Virus record (IMG/VR): IMGVR_UViG_3300025108_000348
Span: 1-25,401 of that record
Direction: 5' to 3' (one strand)
DNA length: 25,401 bases
Origin: a virus
A program made the translations under genes and the position numbers. The notes under the pieces are model-generated. The model worked only from the letters and a program-made list of their open reading frames with translations. It searched no databases and was not told where the DNA came from. Shown one piece after another: positions 1,582-25,401 of this stretch. Positions within the stretch are counted from its first letter, which is position 1, and each line of letters starts with the position of its first letter.

Positions 1582-1596
1582 AAATCAACAGAAAAT

Positions 1597-1630
1597 GCTC
1601 AGGCGTTCCACAAGGAGAGAAAACCTGAGC
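1597..1630 (-). promoter_or_regulatory. 5' leader hairpin with Shine-Dalgarno-complementary loop
   Basis: GCTCAGG (1597-1603) and CCTGAGC (1624-1630) are perfect 7-base inverted repeats separated by 20 bases. In the minus-strand transcript the loop contains UCCUUGU (1610-1616 complement), which is exactly complementary to ACAAGGA (1542-1548 complement), the ribosome-binding site of the 40-residue gene. A leader structure controlling that start is possible. The pairing is only 7 bases and could be chance. Confidence 0.35.
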
Positions 1631-1658
1631 TACCATGCCTTACAGAACCCTCACTGTT

Positions 1659-1690
1659 TGGTTGGTATAGTATTTATGGCTTTTTTGTGA
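1659..1690 (-). promoter_or_regulatory. Weak candidate promoter for fibre operon
   Basis: The minus strand reads TTCTCA, an 18-base spacer and TATACC, each box matching sigma70 consensus at about four of six positions. The region lies between the terminator at 1730-1766 and the 40-residue gene, where a new promoter is needed if the terminator is efficient. The match is poor compared with the four early promoters, so this is only a candidate. Confidence 0.25.
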
Positions 1691-1729
1691 GAATTAACGG
1701 CATAATGAATTAATGATTAATTAGCCATT

Positions 1730-1766
1730 AAAAAACCCCACATAGCTTTAAGGGGGCTATGTGAGG
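1730..1766 (-). terminator. Intrinsic terminator ending the early region
   Basis: In the minus-strand transcript CCUCACAUAGC (1766-1756) pairs with GCUAUGUGGGG (1746-1736) through 11 consecutive pairs, one of them G-U, around a 9-base loop, followed directly by six U residues (1735-1730). This is a textbook Rho-independent terminator. It closes the early operon that ends at 1858 or 1908 and separates it from the fibre operon. Confidence 0.88.
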
Positions 1767-1771
1767 CTAGT

Positions 1772-1791
1772 GTTTACTAGCTCTAGTAAAC
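1772..1791. promoter_or_regulatory. 20-bp palindrome GTTTACTAG-CT-CTAGTAAAC
   Basis: Perfect 9-base arms around a 2-base centre, immediately upstream (in transcription sense) of the intrinsic terminator. The centre is too short for full hairpin pairing, though a shorter stem could form in RNA. The form is that of a binding site for a dimeric DNA-binding protein, or of a second transcript-end structure. No partner is identified. Confidence 0.5.
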
Positions 1792-1857
1792 TATTGCATC
1801 TCTGCAAATCCAATTGTAACAAGGTTCAACTAAAACCTTTTATTTTGGTAACAGTAT

Positions 1858-2417: not shown

Positions 2418-2446
2418 AGTATACACTAAGATGTCTTACTTGTCAA
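2418..2446 (-). promoter_or_regulatory. Early promoter P1 (TTGACA-17-TATACT)
   Basis: Minus strand: TTGACA (2441-2446), 17-base spacer, TATACT (2418-2423). The -35 box is perfect and the -10 box matches five of six. The spacer contains TAAGACATCTTA, a 12-base palindrome, and the sequence CTTAGTGTATA also occurs in promoter P4. It sits just after the stop of the 51-residue gene and drives the 58- and 95-residue genes. Confidence 0.88.
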
Positions 2447-3152: not shown

Positions 3153-3315
3153 TTATTTTGCTCCTAATAGTATTTATTTTAATTGCTTGCCTGTTGTTTA
3201 CCCATTGAATGTGTTTGTTGCACACTAAACACCATAATTGAAATGCATGTGGGCCTTTGCCTCTGCGTAATTCTACAGGATGATTTGCACAATTTGCCGC
3301 TATTCCTTTAATCAT
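3139..3315 (-). CDS. Small zinc-ribbon-like protein, 58 aa
   Basis: ATG at 3313-3315 overlaps the TGA of the polymerase gene (ATGA); stop TGA at 3139-3141 lies 14 bases inside the next gene. The product begins MIKGIAANCANHPVELRRG and continues GPHAFQLWCLVCNKHIQW. Cys9, His12, His23 and the CLVC pair with a following His are spaced as in a small zinc-binding fold. Basic residues between the pairs suggest nucleic-acid or protein contact. Directly downstream of and coupled to the polymerase, it may be an accessory to it. Metal binding and function are inferred only from residue spacing. Confidence 0.65.
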   Translation of the reverse strand: MIKGIAANCANHPVELRRGKGPHAFQLWCLVCNKHIQWVNNRQAIKINTIRSKINDYS

Positions 3316-4850
3316 AACATATATCCTTGTTCTTTTAGTATTTGTGTTAATGCAACATCTTCATCTTCACTGTAGTGTTTACTGCTACCTGAATATTTGA
3401 TTTGTGCAATACGTTCTTGTTCTGCCATACGCATTTCATGTTCTAGCTGTTCTAATTCAACAGCATCATTTAAATAGGTGTATTTGTTAATTTGTTTACA
3501 ATCTATTTGTGCCCAAGGATTAATCTGTTGTATGTCATGCAACACTACACTTGTATCTGGACGCTTACGCACATAAACACCATCATGCACCCACAACAAC
3601 AGTTTGTATCTGTCTAAGTTACTCATTACAGTCATCATTTGCCTTGTTTCATAGTCTTGATATAGATATGCTAAGAAACTACCTATGCTGTATTTCTTGT
3701 CTACACCTACACAATACTTTTTGTATGCACTGATTTCTTTGGCGTATTGTTTGTTAACAATTTTAGTAACCTCTGTTTTTATACTTTTAAGGCCTAACCA
3801 CAGTGGATGTTTAAACATTTCTGCACGGTCTTCTGAGTTCCATATAATCTTTTGAATACTACCGTATAAACTGCTTTTTGCACCAAAACCCATTGCTGTT
3901 ATGGCTTCTTTTACCATAGCAATTTTGTGCTCTTCACTTGTATTTGTGTTTACTAGCGTTTTGGCTAGAGTTTTACGGAATTGTGCTTTATCAAACATTA
4001 ATTCTGTTAACACACTTGTATCTACTGAATGTCCATCCAACAACATCTTATAAAATGAAAATACACTTGTGCGTAAATCAACTTCAAAACAACTACCTAA
4101 TGCCGCTTCTCTTACAACACTGCTCATGCCTTGAAGTGCAAAACTACCTCTGTAATATATGCGTCCGCTTAATGTTGTAGTGTAGTATTGTGGTATTTCA
4201 TGCCAAGTTTTACCACTTAATTTACAAGTTACAGTTTGATTGAAGCCAATTGCAAGTTTTTGTATTGCAAGAGCATCAATAATGTATCTCTTTAGTTTTT
4301 CATTACGGGCACCATCAGCTGTCCAGTTTTTGTATGTTTGTTTGATGTATCTTTCTAAGTTTTCTACATCAATTTCAATGTAGTCTATGTTATCACCAAT
4401 ATCTTGTGCTTTGGCTTGAAATTCATCACCAAATGCTTCAGTAAACTTTTTTGGTTCTGCTTTCATTAAACTATCTACAATATGTATGTTTGGAATACCA
4501 TAACTTTTTTTACCTGTCATACTGTTTCCTTGTTGTGTAATAATGTATAGTGGATAGTTGTCTTGAAACCAATTAAACCAGTAATGCAGTTTATTATCTT
4601 TTTTGTATCTGTATAGAAATGCATCTCTTATTTCATCAAGACTCAATTGAATTGCATTGTCTTTTCTTGGAAACATTCTATACTTCAAAACCTTAAAGGG
4701 TATTACATACAACCAAACATAAGCAATTTCTTCATAACTTGCACCTCTACTCATTTTACTTGGTTTATGTTTCAGTGTCATGGCGTCAACAATTTCACTT
4801 AAATTAAATTTATTAACTTCCATTCCTTCTGTTAGATGTTTGTATTGCAT
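3312..4850 (-). CDS. Divergent palm-domain polymerase (PolA / T7 RNAP superfamily)
   Basis: 512 residues, ATG at 4848-4850 behind AGGAGCAAACAA. Residues 228-241 read SGRIYYRGSFALQG, similar both to TGRLSS...LQN of family A DNA polymerases and to RGRVYAVSMFNPQG of T7-type RNA polymerase. Motif A is probably FEVDLRTSVFSFYKML with Asp258; motif B is a GFGAKSSLYGS block with Tyr329-Gly330; motif C is LLLWVHDGVYV with His422-Asp423. Spacing between these (about 71 and 94 residues) is nearer to Klenow than to T7 RNA polymerase. The enzyme is short for either family, has no recognisable 3'-5' exonuclease, and departs from consensus in motifs A and B. It could copy phage DNA or transcribe late genes. 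It heads an early operon from promoter P2. Superfamily assignment is moderately firm, DNA versus RNA polymerase is open. Confidence 0.7.
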   Translation of the reverse strand: MQYKHLTEGMEVNKFNLSEIVDAMTLKHKPSKMSRGASYEEIAYVWLYVIPFKVLKYRMFPRKDNAIQLSLDEIRDAFLYRYKKDNKLHYWFNWFQDNYPLYIITQQGNSMTGKKSYGIPNIHIVDSLMKAEPKKFTEAFGDEFQAKAQDIGDNIDYIEIDVENLERYIKQTYKNWTADGARNEKLKRYIIDALAIQKLAIGFNQTVTCKLSGKTWHEIPQYYTTTLSGRIYYRGSFALQGMSSVVREAALGSCFEVDLRTSVFSFYKMLLDGHSVDTSVLTELMFDKAQFRKTLAKTLVNTNTSEEHKIAMVKEAITAMGFGAKSSLYGSIQKIIWNSEDRAEMFKHPLWLGLKSIKTEVTKIVNKQYAKEISAYKKYCVGVDKKYSIGSFLAYLYQDYETRQMMTVMSNLDRYKLLLWVHDGVYVRKRPDTSVVLHDIQQINPWAQIDCKQINKYTYLNDAVELEQLEHEMRMAEQERIAQIKYSGSSKHYSEDEDVALTQILKEQGYML

Positions 4851-5395: not shown

Positions 5396-5424
5396 ATAAT
5401 AACACAAAAACGGTGTTTTGTCAA
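5396..5424 (-). promoter_or_regulatory. Early promoter P3 (TTGACA-17-TATTAT)
   Basis: Minus strand: TTGACA (5419-5424), 17-base spacer, TATTAT (5396-5401). Like P2 it contains AACAC...GTGTT inside the spacer. It begins immediately downstream of the terminator at 5441-5487 and drives the 125-residue gene. Confidence 0.87.
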
Positions 5425-5440
5425 GTTTTTGAAGTCAAAG

Positions 5441-5487
5441 AAAAACCCTATGCACCATAGTTTTTGAGAAAACATGCATAGGGTTTT
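5441..5487 (-). terminator. Intrinsic terminator with long loop
   Basis: AAAACCCTATGCA (5442-5454) and TGCATAGGGTTTT (5475-5487) are perfect 13-base inverted repeats separated by 20 bases. In the minus-strand transcript the stem ends in CAUAGGG followed by five U residues. The mirrored A/T runs mean it could also work in the plus direction. It would end the transcript from promoter P4, and read-through from the HTH gene. Confidence 0.82.
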
Positions 5488-5684
5488 AATTGATAACCAT
5501 ATCAAAGATACGCTGTATACAGTAAGGGCAACTAACTGCGGGCACATGAAATGTTTCATTCTTGTTTGGAGCTGTGCTATGAAATAAACACAAATAACCC
5601 GTATACAACTTTAAGTTAAAAATTTGTAGGCTTTTAATGAACATAGTTTGAGTAAAGAGATACAAAATATTTTTTTAACTTACA
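5441..5684 (-). ncRNA. Putative small regulatory RNA, about 240 nt
   Basis: Promoter P4 (5691-5719) directly faces a region of about 200 bases with no credible reading frame, ended by the intrinsic terminator at 5441-5487. The predicted transcript starts near 5684. Its 5' part can form AAGUUAAAAA with UUUUUAACUU (about 5681 to 5613), and further in are AUGAAACAUUUCAU (self-complementary), GUAUAC twice, and CCCGC/GCCC segments. It could be an antisense, sponge or host-RNA-polymerase-modulating RNA; I do not recognise a family. The 68-codon frame at 5353-5559 runs through the terminator into P3 and has no ribosome-binding site, so I do not accept it as the product. Confidence 0.55.
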
Positions 5685-5690
5685 ATACTA

Positions 5691-5719
5691 TTTATACACT
5701 AAGAAACGTTAATTGTCAA
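5691..5719 (-). promoter_or_regulatory. Promoter P4 (TTGACA-17-TATAAA)
   Basis: Minus strand: TTGACA (5714-5719), 17-base spacer, TATAAA (5691-5696). It starts four bases after the stop codon of the HTH gene. It shares CTTAGTGTATA with promoter P1, at the same distance from the -35 box. No gene follows; the transcript would be the putative small RNA. Confidence 0.85.
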
Positions 5720-5722
5720 CCT

Positions 5723-6208
5723 CTAATTGTCAAACTCTAATTCTTTGGCCATACGTTCATTGTATTTCTTTCTGTGGTAATATACGTTTGCGGCTGTGCA
5801 ACCTAATTCATGTGCAATACTTGTGAGTGTTGCACCATTTTCTAATCTATACACAATTTCTGCTTGTAGTGTTTCAGTGTTTACCATTGCATCTTTACTA
5901 AAACCTTGACTGTATCCGTTTTGTCCAGATTGTTGTGTTTGTTTACCTGACTTATTCAATATTATTTCTTCTGGTAATCTTGGCTCAAGTCCGTGTAAAA
6001 CTAACCATTCATCTATATTTGGTTCACTTGTTGCAACAGCCGTTACATTATGATACCATCTATAACAAACATACTCTCCTGGGCATTCTGCTAGTAATTT
6101 TTTAACTGCTACAAAATGAACTAATTTGTTGAATTGGTGCAATGGCAGTGCTCTGTTAAAGCCGCCTTTAAGGCGGTCTATAGTGTATTTCTGATTGGAT
6201 TTGGGCAT
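5723..6208 (-). CDS. Helix-turn-helix DNA-binding protein, 161 aa
   Basis: ATG at 6206-6208, stop TAG at 5723-5725. The C-terminal third (residues about 123-152, ENGATLTSIAHELGCTAANVYYHRKKYN) has the form of a helix-turn-helix with a basic recognition helix. The N-terminal part (residues 1-95: RLKGGFNRALPLHQFNKLVHF, then ECPGEYVCYRWYHN) is of unknown fold; residues 88-110 are a Q/N/S/G-rich linker. Upstream lie palindromes with GACGC half-sites, suggesting self-regulation; downstream its stop abuts promoter P4. It probably is the regulator of this phage's early or late switch, or a non-classical terminase-like HTH protein. Regulator role is inferred from the motif and operator; the target is unknown. 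Confidence 0.72.
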   Translation of the reverse strand: MPKSNQKYTIDRLKGGFNRALPLHQFNKLVHFVAVKKLLAECPGEYVCYRWYHNVTAVATSEPNIDEWLVLHGLEPRLPEEIILNKSGKQTQQSGQNGYSQGFSKDAMVNTETLQAEIVYRLENGATLTSIAHELGCTAANVYYHRKKYNERMAKELEFDN

Positions 6209-6604: not shown

Positions 6605-8113
6605 TTATAACTCCAATGCACTGTCATATGTTGTAGCAATTATTTCAACTGTATTATCTTCAGTTAATTTTAATTCTTGCACTCTAAAGTATTTACGTGT
6701 TTGTCCTGCGCCAGTTCCCCAACCCAAGTCATCAAGTCTTACTTCAATTACATCACCACTGGCTAATAACAATGCTGTGTGAGCCGCTATAAAACTTAAT
6801 TGATATAAATCTCTACTTTGCTCTACTATTTGTGTAATCAACTCTTCAACTAACGTTGCGTCAGTGATCAATGTATAATCATCTTTTGTTTCTAATATAG
6901 CGCCACCGTCTTCAGCCTTATATGTAAAATTTTGATATACAACTAAGTCATCATTCCACTTTTCATTAGCATTATTAAAATGTCCTGTAATTTTATTTAG
7001 TTTAGCTGCTTTGGCTGGAAGTGCCAATGAAACTTCACCAAGGATATTATCTTTGTTAAATATTCTACTGCTTGGAATACTCAACTCTTCATCTTTCTTA
7101 CGGATACGTAATTCATACTTACCATCAACAAACAATAACATGCCGTTGCAAGTTTCTAATATTTCACTGATGTTGTCAAATATTTGTTTGTCTGTTTGTA
7201 AAAATCCATTCAATGGATATCCTGCACCACCACGGACAGCACTTATATTGCCTGGTTGACACTGATTTCTTGCAATTTTAAAACTATCTAAGTTGATATT
7301 TGTTCCTGCAACCCAAGTTCCATTACCTAATCTATCCAGGCCTTTTCCGTAAAATGGGTGTATCAAATAGTCATACAACACATTTGCAGGGTTTTGATCA
7401 GCACCACTTGTATAACTACTTGCTGAAAGATCACCCGCTTCATCACCATCAGTTAACTGAATCACGTCTATAATTTCTTTGCCTTTTAGTGTTGCATTGA
7501 ATGTTGGTAACTGTCCACCAAACCTTTCATCTGCTTGAAGTTTTATTGCCAAATAACTTATAGCTTGTAATCTGTGCATAGAACCCCAAACACTACTACC
7601 AACACTAGCAGTCAATGTTGCATCAGTTAATTGACCTGATATTCCAGGATACCATGCAATGTAAAAACTTATACCTGTAAATTTTGTGCCAGACATAAAG
7701 TTTTGTAATTGATATCCACCACTGGCTAACTGAGTTTTGGTTCCATTAACAGCACTGTCCCAAACAACTGTATCATTGAACCATAGCTGTGTTATATCAT
7801 CAATATTACCTTCACACATAGCAATAGCCATATTTAAATATTCTGTATTTGTTGCTTTACCTTCTGCATCAATGCCTTGCACATTACCTGCACCATCACT
7901 GGCTTCAACAAATACTCTTGTTCCACCCATGCGTTGTTCACCATACAATGCGTAAATTGGATCATTATTTGATTGTTTATTAACCATAACGTTAGGACGG
8001 ACACTTGCAACTACTTGCTGTTGTTGTGTCTTTTCAGCTCTACGTTGCTGGCTGTTTGAGAATGCACCTTTAAACGCCTCACCAATTAATTTTCCTATTT
8101 GTTCTTTACCCAT
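6605..8113 (-). CDS. gpJ-like tail hub / central tail protein, 502 aa
   Basis: ATG at 8111-8113, overlapping the previous stop by 8 bases. The N-terminus (GKLIGEAFKGAF) is short and helical, then VNKQSNNDPIYALYGEQRMGGTRVFVE resembles the opening of the lambda gpJ / GTA hub family. Middle residues hold a domain with ISYLAIKLQADERFGGQLPTF and YDYLIHPFYGKGLDRL; the C-terminal part has ILETCNGMLLFVDGKYELRIR and closes with RKYFRVQELKLTEDNTVEIIATTYD, typical of the tip-attachment domain. It is shorter than lambda gpJ (about 1130 residues), lacking long fibre-like extensions. It lies at the end of the tail module, after the DUF6950 gene, as in gene transfer agents. It likely closes the tail tube and starts genome delivery. 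Confidence 0.8.
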   Translation of the reverse strand: MGKEQIGKLIGEAFKGAFSNSQQRRAEKTQQQQVVASVRPNVMVNKQSNNDPIYALYGEQRMGGTRVFVEASDGAGNVQGIDAEGKATNTEYLNMAIAMCEGNIDDITQLWFNDTVVWDSAVNGTKTQLASGGYQLQNFMSGTKFTGISFYIAWYPGISGQLTDATLTASVGSSVWGSMHRLQAISYLAIKLQADERFGGQLPTFNATLKGKEIIDVIQLTDGDEAGDLSASSYTSGADQNPANVLYDYLIHPFYGKGLDRLGNGTWVAGTNINLDSFKIARNQCQPGNISAVRGGAGYPLNGFLQTDKQIFDNISEILETCNGMLLFVDGKYELRIRKKDEELSIPSSRIFNKDNILGEVSLALPAKAAKLNKITGHFNNANEKWNDDLVVYQNFTYKAEDGGAILETKDDYTLITDATLVEELITQIVEQSRDLYQLSFIAAHTALLLASGDVIEVRLDDLGWGTGAGQTRKYFRVQELKLTEDNTVEIIATTYDSALEL

Positions 8114-23495: not shown

Positions 23496-24872
23496 TTAGT
23501 GTAAGTCAACCCAAGTTCCGCTGCCGGTAACAATTGCGTAAACTTGTAGTTTATCATCTGTGCTGTTATAAATTACTGTTCCTGTGTCTACACTGCTTAA
23601 TGCATTTCTTTGAGTTGTAGTCATGTTTACAAACTTAAATGGCACAGTAGCAGTAGCCTGCTTTTGATTGATACTAAGTTCTGCTTCATCTGAACTATCA
23701 TGTGTTAGTGCAGCCAATTTCATTGTGCTTAATTCACCATTGTTTGCACTTTTGTATCTTGCACCAAAGTATCCAACTTTTAATTGACCTTGTGTATCAT
23801 CTTGAACTGAAAATTCCTGCCATGATTCAGCATCATTTGGTATTGTTCCACTGCCCCAATTTAGATTTGTTTTAACACCAGTTGACAAGTCACTAGTGGC
23901 ATTTGACATATCTGTTTGGATTTGCAATGCAGTGTTTGGCGTAGTTGAACTAGGTGCTAATTCTACTCTAACCTGTCCAGACATATTGTGTTTGACATCA
24001 CCAGTGTTGGTGTCTTTGCTCATCTGATAAATGGTTTGATTAAAAGTTCCATCATCATTCAGCACATCAAAGTATTGATATTTTAAATCACCATCTCTGT
24101 AACTACGCAATTGGTTGTTGTATGTTAAACTTCCAAAGCCTTGATCTGTTCCGCTTTTAATACTAACTGAATAATCATCATCACTTATGTTAAAGAACTC
24201 TGCCGCAACTGCATCATTATTATCCCAATCAGCTTTGACTACTAGAGGTGCTTCATCATCACCATTTTGGTTTTGAAGTGTTGCACTCTTTTGTGCCATG
24301 AATCTTCCGTAAATATATGCCCAATCTTTGTTGGCTTGAATTATATTATCTTGGCTCAAGTCATCCCAACTATAAGCTCTGAACCAAGCTTCAGGATCAG
24401 TGCCGTCATCATTGTTTGATTGAAACTGAATGCCGCCTTGGTATTGAGTTAAACCGCCATCATCACTGGTCATGTTAAAATCAATGGCAGGGCCTCTTGA
24501 ATCAAATCCACCGCCTAAGGTTTCTGTTCCCAAATCACGTTGAACAATTATACTAGCAACTCCACCAGACTTGTCTTCATCATTCTCACGGTTTGCATAA
24601 ATGTTTTGTCCGTAGTTGCCTGATTCATTTGTAAATCCACCCATGGTTGTGAGTGTGCTGTCTACATCAACACTTCCACTGAGTGTCAAACTTGATGCAT
24701 CTTCAATTGCCGTAACTGCATCACTGTCATCATATTTGTTTGCAAGTATTACCGCGTCAGATCCGTTTGAACTGACATAAAGTGTTTGTGCCGCAACATC
24801 CATTGCAACTTCATATTGTTCCAGGCTACCTGCTGGTGAACCCGTTCCTCTTTTTAATTTAATAGTTCCCAT
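23496..24872 (-). CDS. Tail fibre-like protein, 458 aa
   Basis: ATG at 24870-24872 shares a base with the previous fibre stop (TAATG). MGTIKLKRGTGSPAGSLEQYEVAMDVAAQTLYVSSNG is a common attachment-type N-terminus of marine phage fibres; the middle (residues about 60-400) is a beta-rich region with many N, D, T and G; the C-terminus MTTTQRNALSSVDTGTVIYNSTDDKLQVY...WVDLH is the usual trimerising end of such fibres. It may be a second fibre or a fibre subunit. It is followed by the terminase genes, so fibres and packaging are in the same transcript. Confidence 0.78.
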   Translation of the reverse strand: MGTIKLKRGTGSPAGSLEQYEVAMDVAAQTLYVSSNGSDAVILANKYDDSDAVTAIEDASSLTLSGSVDVDSTLTTMGGFTNESGNYGQNIYANRENDEDKSGGVASIIVQRDLGTETLGGGFDSRGPAIDFNMTSDDGGLTQYQGGIQFQSNNDDGTDPEAWFRAYSWDDLSQDNIIQANKDWAYIYGRFMAQKSATLQNQNGDDEAPLVVKADWDNNDAVAAEFFNISDDDYSVSIKSGTDQGFGSLTYNNQLRSYRDGDLKYQYFDVLNDDGTFNQTIYQMSKDTNTGDVKHNMSGQVRVELAPSSTTPNTALQIQTDMSNATSDLSTGVKTNLNWGSGTIPNDAESWQEFSVQDDTQGQLKVGYFGARYKSANNGELSTMKLAALTHDSSDEAELSINQKQATATVPFKFVNMTTTQRNALSSVDTGTVIYNSTDDKLQVYAIVTGSGTWVDLH

Positions 24873-25401
24873 TAGTAGGTTCCTCCATCTGTTAATGCTG
24901 ATAAATCTACACTGCTTAAACTGCCGCTTATAGTTAAGTCTGGTGAAAGGAAACTCAGCGTTTGATTATCAGTTTCACTTGTCAAATAACCTGCGTCATT
25001 TGTAAACATTGAAATGTTTCCTGATTTGTTTGTTAGCGTTTCTGTTGAATCAGCTTTTATGTAAGCCGCACCATTTGATAATTCATTGTTGTTTGTTGGT
25101 ATTGTAGGTTTATTTGTTAAACTAGCGTATGCGCCATCAAATGCATCTGTTATTCCATAACCTGAAACGGTTGTTGGTGTTGACGTTATGGCACTGAATG
25201 CCAAAGCTGTTGTCTTCAATGGTGTAAGGTCTACATTATTTCCACCTGAAATAGTCAATGTTGGTGTGCTGAAAGTCAGTGTTTGGCTGTCTGTTTCACT
25301 TGTGATATAACCTGCGTCATTGCTGAATGTTGATACCGGTAATGCATCAGTTTGTGTTTTAGTGTAATAAGGTGTCAATGCAGCTGCTTTTAGATAAGCT
25401 T
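24872..25401 (-). CDS. Tail fibre protein, C-terminal part (runs off right edge)
   Basis: Open without a start to the right edge; stop TAA at 24872-24874. An internal ATG-like TTG near 25378 is not the true start, as the frame continues to the edge with AYLKAAALTPYYT, the same sequence as in the left-end fibre. Repeats GYITSETDSQTLTFS, STPTTVSGYGITDAFDGAYAS and SNDAGYLTSETDNQTLSF occur; it ends SALTDGGTY. It is most likely the end of the fibre that begins at 1085, if the molecule is circular, or else a paralogue. The final DGGTY is shared with the small fibre-like protein at 6285. Confidence 0.82.
   Translation of the reverse strand, partial: AYLKAAALTPYYTKTQTDALPVSTFSNDAGYITSETDSQTLTFSTPTLTISGGNNVDLTPLKTTALAFSAITSTPTTVSGYGITDAFDGAYASLTNKPTIPTNNNELSNGAAYIKADSTETLTNKSGNISMFTNDAGYLTSETDNQTLSFLSPDLTISGSLSSVDLSALTDGGTY
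25281..25401. repeat. Exact 121-bp repeat, copy 2 (copy 1 at 310-430)
   Basis: Identical to 310-430 and ends at the window edge. The adjacent 24890-25280 region is similar but diverged from the corresponding part near 1-309. It marks an internal duplication in a fibre gene and probable assembly break. Confidence 0.9.

Follow-up and report, generated by a model that had tools for sequence, protein, structure and literature searches.

An apparently conserved structured small RNA with unpaired CUCC motifs in a group of uncultured phages

Introduction

What does a phage encode between a promoter and a terminator that enclose no gene? This arrangement lies in a 25.4-kb uncultured virus record, IMGVR_UViG_3300025108_000348 (positions 1-25,401; here called the window, meaning the whole stretch of DNA that was analysed), with every element on the minus strand between two genes. 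An earlier note, made from the sequence alone, had proposed that the interval encodes a small RNA of unknown family. Few structured small RNAs common to a diverse group of phages have been documented. The one described here shows strong covariation, its promoter is conserved, and it carries a motif from which a mode of action can be predicted.

Results

The features of the locus are collected in Table 1. The earlier note had reported a promoter beginning four bases past an HTH gene's stop codon and then a terminator, with no gene between them, and both claims held: the -35 box does begin at that distance, and the roughly 245 nt that follow contain no conserved frame and end in a 13-bp terminator with five U. 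The pattern TTGACA-N16-18-TATAAA occurs only once in the 25.4 kb, where 0.06 occurrences are expected, and is present in 6/100 shuffles. The terminator arms (5487-5475 and 5454-5442) are complementary at 13/13 positions and are followed by TTTTT at 5445-5441. A consensus terminator scan did not detect the terminator at 5442-5487 because its arms lie 20 nt apart, a gap that folding mostly closes with the inner 5-bp extension. With its 5' end inferred from the -10 box and its 3' end from the U-run, the transcript folds at -57.7 kcal/mol (z = -4.1), and 0/200 shuffles folded equally well. A 10-bp pairing that the note had described near the 5' end needs correction, as it is 11 bp long and part of a larger hairpin.

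Table 1. Features of the RNA locus and of the promoter that has a box in common with it, in window coordinates.
Feature	Position	Strand	Remarks
HTH protein gene	5723..6208	-	ORF ends at 5723; directly upstream of the RNA in every case found
RNA promoter, TTGACA-17-TATAAA	5691..5719	-	TTGACA 5719-5714, 17 nt, TATAAA 5696-5691
Small RNA transcript, ~245 nt (ends inferred)	5437..5685	-	kept in 27 distinct relatives
Module A, 5' hairpin UAAGUUAAAAA/UUUUUAACUUA	5612..5682	-	apical CU-rich stretch UCUCUUUAC at 5660-5652
Module B, core	5512..5609	-	P1 (5609-5599 with 5522-5512) enclosing Pa, Pb and Pc
Hairpin Pa, UUGUGUU/AGCACAG	5572..5593	-	pairs covary in relatives
Unpaired CUCC between Pa and Pb	5568..5571	-	invariant column; mean unpaired probability 0.86 in the window RNA (predicted)
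Hairpin Pc, GCAG/UUGC	5528..5539	-	invariant CC after it
Intrinsic terminator, 13-bp stem and inner 5 bp	5442..5487	-	loop UUUUCUCAAAA; UUUUCUCCAAAA in close relatives
Next gene's own promoter, TTGACA-17-TATTAT	5396..5424	-	serves the 125-aa gene
Second CTTAGTGTATA promoter	2418..2446	-	contains TTGACAA.TAA and CTTAGTGTATA, as the RNA promoter does; serves small non-structural genes

The note had also claimed that the promoter shares a box with another promoter, and this held. The box, CTTAGTGTATA, has exactly two sites in the window (5703-5693 and 2430-2420; expected 0.01), each sitting inside a TTGACA-17-TATA promoter. That the RNA is early and co-regulated, as the note went on to infer, is merely suggested by the shared box and the sigma-70-like promoters, without transcript evidence. 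In the leader of the 125-aa gene (5394-5340, minus strand), we observed a short perfect hairpin, ATGTAGAAA/TTTCTACAT, just before the Shine-Dalgarno sequence AAGGAGA.

We gathered relatives from viral contigs via the HTH protein and DNA patterns, and found the RNA unit in 27 distinct relatives, reaching approximately 26-30% HTH-protein identity. The unit runs in the order HTH gene, TTGACA-17-TATA promoter, RNA, usually a terminator, and a further promoter. In 27/27 relatives the RNA promoter has a spacer of exactly 17 nt and either overlaps the HTH stop or comes immediately after it; the terminator is present in 25/27 (absent from L055/L056), and a new promoter after the RNA is found in the relatives too, read by eye in L055/L056. 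The RNAs are about 180-275 nt long. Wherever a relative's contig continues beyond the HTH gene, the RNA comes next, except in L050/L051 and in contigs truncated inside the region. Linkage to this one HTH gene is established for the family, and the gene is the only constant neighbour of the RNA: the gene on the other side varies among relatives, being a member of the 125-aa family, a 181-aa gene, a 178-aa gene or others. In L004, the 181-aa gene (6908-7453, plus strand) is inserted before the 125-aa gene, and its product has, by eye, an ADP-ribosyltransferase-like YRG signature.

The family RNA consists of three modules. Module A, the 5' hairpin (GUAAGUUAA.../...UUAACUUA), is variable in length, down to 8 bp in L014, and its apical stretch is UUCUCCAAA in most of the diverged relatives. 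Module B is the core: inside an 11-bp helix, P1, lie Pa, a CUCC that never varies, the variable hairpin Pb, and Pc with an invariant CC after it; module C is the terminator. The core letters GGGU, CUCC, CCC and UACU are invariant and unpaired or oddly paired, and one P1 pair is G.U in 27/27 cores.

Pa was out of register in a MAFFT alignment, from which RNAalifold therefore derived a poor consensus; a covariance model and a manual structural alignment were used instead. Five core pairs of Pa are kept in essentially all 27 distinct cores, with four pair types at three positions, and P1 and Pc behave in the same way, their pairing kept while pair types vary. In L045, P1 has shifted from GUUGUAUACGG/CUGUAUACAGC to GAUUUGCAAGG/CUUUGCAAAUC. 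Along a tree of the adjacent HTH protein, which is independent of the RNA, pairing in P1, Pa and Pc together was preserved by 50 compensatory double changes and broken by 5 changes, with a further 20 single-side changes; with column partners exchanged, the mean was 5.6 compensatory changes (maximum 29), and breaks numbered at least 49. The covariation score of the model-fitted alignment was 0.316, versus 0.135 when shuffled and no more than 0.10 when the pairing was slid. The structural alignment of the 27 cores was hand-made and is biased towards structure, but chance is an implausible explanation for an effect this large. The earlier note had suggested a covariance search in related genomes as a check, and the excess of compensatory changes over breaks supports its proposal. 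The conserved promoter, fold and terminator are established for the family, and we conclude that a genuine conserved RNA family almost certainly lies between the HTH gene and the next gene, albeit without transcript data.

The core covariance model, R1, gave 50 matches over 59 sources, 29 of them distinct, with E-values from 6e-15 to 8e-4; the window scored 81.8 bits and was itself among the sequences used to build the model. R1 matched once per record in 15/17 full records. The two negative records were L029, with a contig that stops within the HTH gene, and L050, whose unit is rearranged. In L050 (5423-5720), and alike in L051, this rearranged unit follows the most diverged HTH gene; its order, read by eye and unquantified, is a simple hairpin with a GACUCCAAUC loop, then a UUCUCCAAA hairpin, then a terminator, and the core model does not recognise the reduced unit.

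As a specificity control, the model rejects pattern matches that are not the RNA. When the RNA was sought outside the HTH context, only two were recognised among pattern-found contigs not already collected, and both came from already known contigs. No match to the HTH protein or to the RNA's DNA was found in 50,697 known phage records, the RNA model gave no significant hit in HTVC202P, HTVC111P or DSL-LC06, and a related-locus search of bacterial and archaeal genomes found no HTH relative. Two loci in GTDB species genomes fitted the core pattern and failed the covariance model, leaving no convincing copy in those genomes. No family of Rfam 15 matched the RNA at gathering level; at permissive E-values there were only sub-threshold hits, the best being RybB, with 23.7 bits versus a cutoff of 40 and in the terminator region only. 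The note's description of the family as unknown is supported. As far as found, and as inferred from the searches run, the RNA is confined to one phage group and occurs once per record.

What the RNA displays most consistently is CUCC, the complement of the Shine-Dalgarno core GGAG. The core CUCC lies unpaired between helices in every member, with a predicted mean unpaired probability that is mostly 0.7-1.0 and is 0.38-0.52 in L032, L045, L055 and L056. The 24 non-redundant RNAs contain 46 CUCC, versus 8.3 in dinucleotide shuffles, and 20/24 have at least two, versus 1.06 expected; GGAG has 0 occurrences in the same RNAs. The second CUCC is nearly always in a hairpin loop (unpaired probability 0.66-1.0), and its place depends on lineage: the 5' hairpin (UUCUCCAAA, for example in L027-L039), the terminator loop (UUUUCUCCAAAA) in the window's close relatives, or the third hairpin position, Pb, in L055/L056. 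A single CUCC each is found in L006, L014 and L032. In the window RNA the core CUCC is intact, and the terminator loop has UUCUCA and the 5' hairpin UCUCUUU instead of a second motif. Conserved unpaired CUCC motifs that switch hairpins between lineages are an established property of the family. Because CUCC persists while changing hairpins, it is probably the working part of the RNA, a functional role that we infer from this persistence across lineages.

Shine-Dalgarno sites in the carrier phages differ between gene classes. GGAG sites precede 50/69 non-structural versus 86/232 structural genes, and the fraction is higher for non-structural genes in each of 10 genomes. This enrichment is shown, although the contrast was drawn post hoc, from simple gene calls in genomes that are related to one another. 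In the genomes sampled, AAGGAA-type sites precede portal and scaffold genes, and capsid genes have either type. Two pelagiphages without an RNA-model match had no GGAG contrast between gene classes. The contrast could fit repression of non-structural messages, on evidence that is indirect and post hoc. The brevity of CUCC and the generic nature of Shine-Dalgarno sites meant that no specific mRNA target was found for the RNA.

The neighbouring HTH protein is about 160 aa long, and its C-terminal HTH resembles LuxR/sigma-4 domains. This assignment rests on domain-level matches only (mean pLDDT 71.5), and the N-terminal domain has no assignment. The protein may conceivably control the RNA promoter or the shared-box promoters, a role inferred without binding data. 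The carriers are likely a small-genome, apparently aquatic/marine siphophage group. Isolates including DSL-LC06 and Pelagibacter phage HTVC111P have terminases 44-47% identical to the window's, and the window's tail protein is about 28-30% identical to pelagiphage proteins. On these identities the host is unknown, with an aquatic proteobacterium a plausible but tentative candidate.

Discussion

We propose that the locus is a phage gene for an independently transcribed small RNA, its transcription being inferred. The junction-shaped core and one or two hairpins would keep CUCC stretches single-stranded, and the RNA would act in trans as an anti-Shine-Dalgarno sRNA, with CUCC pairing to the GGAG of ribosome-binding sites. 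Initiation would thereby be blocked, the probable targets being GGAG-type non-structural messages of the phage itself and/or host messages; the latter may equally be the targets, in the absence of target data. Virion genes, which more often have Shine-Dalgarno sites lacking GGAG, would be spared more often. We consider this the best explanation, though it could as easily prove wrong as right; pairing with messages, repression and timing are all inferred. Against it stand an invariant junction (GGGU, CCC, UACU and the G.U pair) that exceeds what anti-Shine-Dalgarno display needs and could bind a protein, the lack of transcript or interaction data or of a specific target, the window's second motif, which is UUCUCA, the single CUCC of L006, L014 and L032, the less exposed core CUCC predicted for L032, L045, L055 and L056, and the post hoc nature of the Shine-Dalgarno contrast. 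A bolder reading, that the RNA mimics the anti-Shine-Dalgarno tail of 16S rRNA and moves the cell from host/early GGAG-type to virion messages, as an HTH-controlled translational early-to-late switch, is in our view unlikely.

The closest known parallel is AbcR1/AbcR2 (alpha-r15) of alphaproteobacteria. AbcR1/2 have one anti-Shine-Dalgarno motif in a 5' hairpin loop and one between stem-loops, translation is repressed through both, and mutating each motif relieves repression of its own targets (PMC8844928). Like AbcR, the phage RNA appears to be an independent sRNA with a terminator, and in most of its diverged members CUCC lies in the 5' hairpin loop and between helices; the window keeps the inter-helix CUCC only. 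Because the CUCC layout is the same as in AbcR1/2, trans-repression at ribosome-binding sites is the best supported reading. In contrast to AbcR, the phage RNA has an enclosed multi-helix core, is phage-encoded, carries CUCC/UUCUCC rather than CUCCUCCC/UUCCCCUC, and has no sequence or Rfam match to AbcR and no Hfq or target evidence. NfeR1, with three anti-Shine-Dalgarno motifs (PMC8844928), and Caulobacter SisA-D, for which a common 10-mer anti-Shine-Dalgarno motif is reported (PMC12559287), are likewise small RNAs with repeated or shared motifs that repress mRNAs, but they are bacterial and, by Rfam scan only, unrelated to the phage RNA in sequence or fold. LhrC of Listeria and RsaE-type C-rich-loop sRNAs pair CU-rich loops with Shine-Dalgarno sites; these are Firmicute RNAs with another fold, and the phage RNA has no Rfam match.

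Among RNAs that are also phage-encoded, a recent review covers OOP, sar, c4, CfrI, IpeX and 24B_1, and describes how c4 RNA of P1/P7, with complementary sequences in loops, blocks ant translation around the ribosome binding site (PMC12197685). Unlike the present one, the reviewed RNAs act as antisense to a single cognate transcript, arise by processing or are peculiar to other phages, and no sequence relation was found. The phi29 packaging RNA and 6S RNA are also structured phage or bacterial RNAs, which act through proteins, but they have another helix plan and Rfam scans gave no match; moreover, unlike the packaging RNA, the phage RNA does not lie beside the terminase, which is about 16 kb away in the window. 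Neither Rfam 15 nor the open literature searched contains the family, which to that extent is new, and no phage-wide anti-Shine-Dalgarno sRNA family with such a fold was found in that literature; anti-Shine-Dalgarno sRNAs as a mechanism are already known.

The main rival to the anti-Shine-Dalgarno reading is a protein-binding RNA, because the junction is richer than motif display requires; we rate it as less likely than that reading. Here the junction and CUCC loops would be a scaffold or decoy, like CsrB, 6S or packaging RNAs, with CUCC as the protein-recognition motif and a host regulator, a ribosomal protein or the adjacent HTH protein as partner. The elaborate core, with its invariant unpaired letters and P1 G.U pair, the repetition of an identical motif in several loops and the HTH gene adjoining the RNA in every case found all favour this possibility. 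Against it, CUCC exactly complements GGAG, which the RNAs themselves lack, the LuxR/sigma-4 type of HTH domain is a DNA-binding fold, and no Rfam family of such a kind matches.

Readings that deny the interval an independent RNA function fare worse. It could be a cis-acting leader or attenuator that regulates the downstream gene by premature termination, as its position upstream of a gene and the terminator at its end would allow; we find this improbable, since a separate promoter follows the RNA in relatives and the next gene varies while the upstream HTH gene is constant. Adjacency to the HTH gene on the same strand would also suit a processed 3' UTR or extension of the HTH mRNA without separate function, but a consensus promoter of the RNA's own at the HTH stop in 27/27 relatives, and a structure conserved independently by covariation, make this highly improbable. 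That the interval encodes a small protein is all but excluded. Frames of 59 and 68 aa are open in the window, but no reading frame is common to the relatives, where lengths, starts and frames differ, and changes concentrate in base-paired positions that keep their pairing; the earlier note had named a conserved translated frame in relatives as what would refute its proposal, and no shared frame was found.

If the anti-Shine-Dalgarno reading is true, these phages encode a general-purpose translational silencer like the alphaproteobacterial ones. The HTH gene and the covariance model together offer a sequence handle with which the RNA can be found and tested in metatranscriptomes.

Additional observations

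A second conserved structured RNA candidate lies at 1590-1690 (minus strand), upstream of the tail-fibre/structural gene run. It has a hairpin with a near-invariant loop, UGGGGGUU (UGAGGGUU in the window), followed by a second hairpin, and by eye L005, L014, L025, L072, L088, L090 and L092 appear to change both stem sides; RNAalifold gave no resolved structure for this candidate. It could be a leader or antiterminator RNA. Pairing of the small RNA with the GGGGG loop of this second RNA was considered and set aside; the window's loop is GAGGG. At 1728-1850 (minus strand), where the non-structural gene cluster ends, a non-coding stretch is predicted to fold strongly (z = -5.5); it comprises three hairpins and a terminator and is partly conserved in relatives.

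A 512-aa protein encoded at 3312-4850 (minus strand) is absent at the corresponding position in relatives such as L005, and had no match in Pfam, PHROGs, NCBIfam or PDB sequences. Motifs in it such as VDLR, YGS and WVHDG may recall polymerase A/C motifs. Finally, the two ends of the record (1-1080 and 24872-25401) fall within one repetitive tail-fibre-like gene, which suggests that the genome may be circular or permuted, about 25.5 kb long and broken at repeats.
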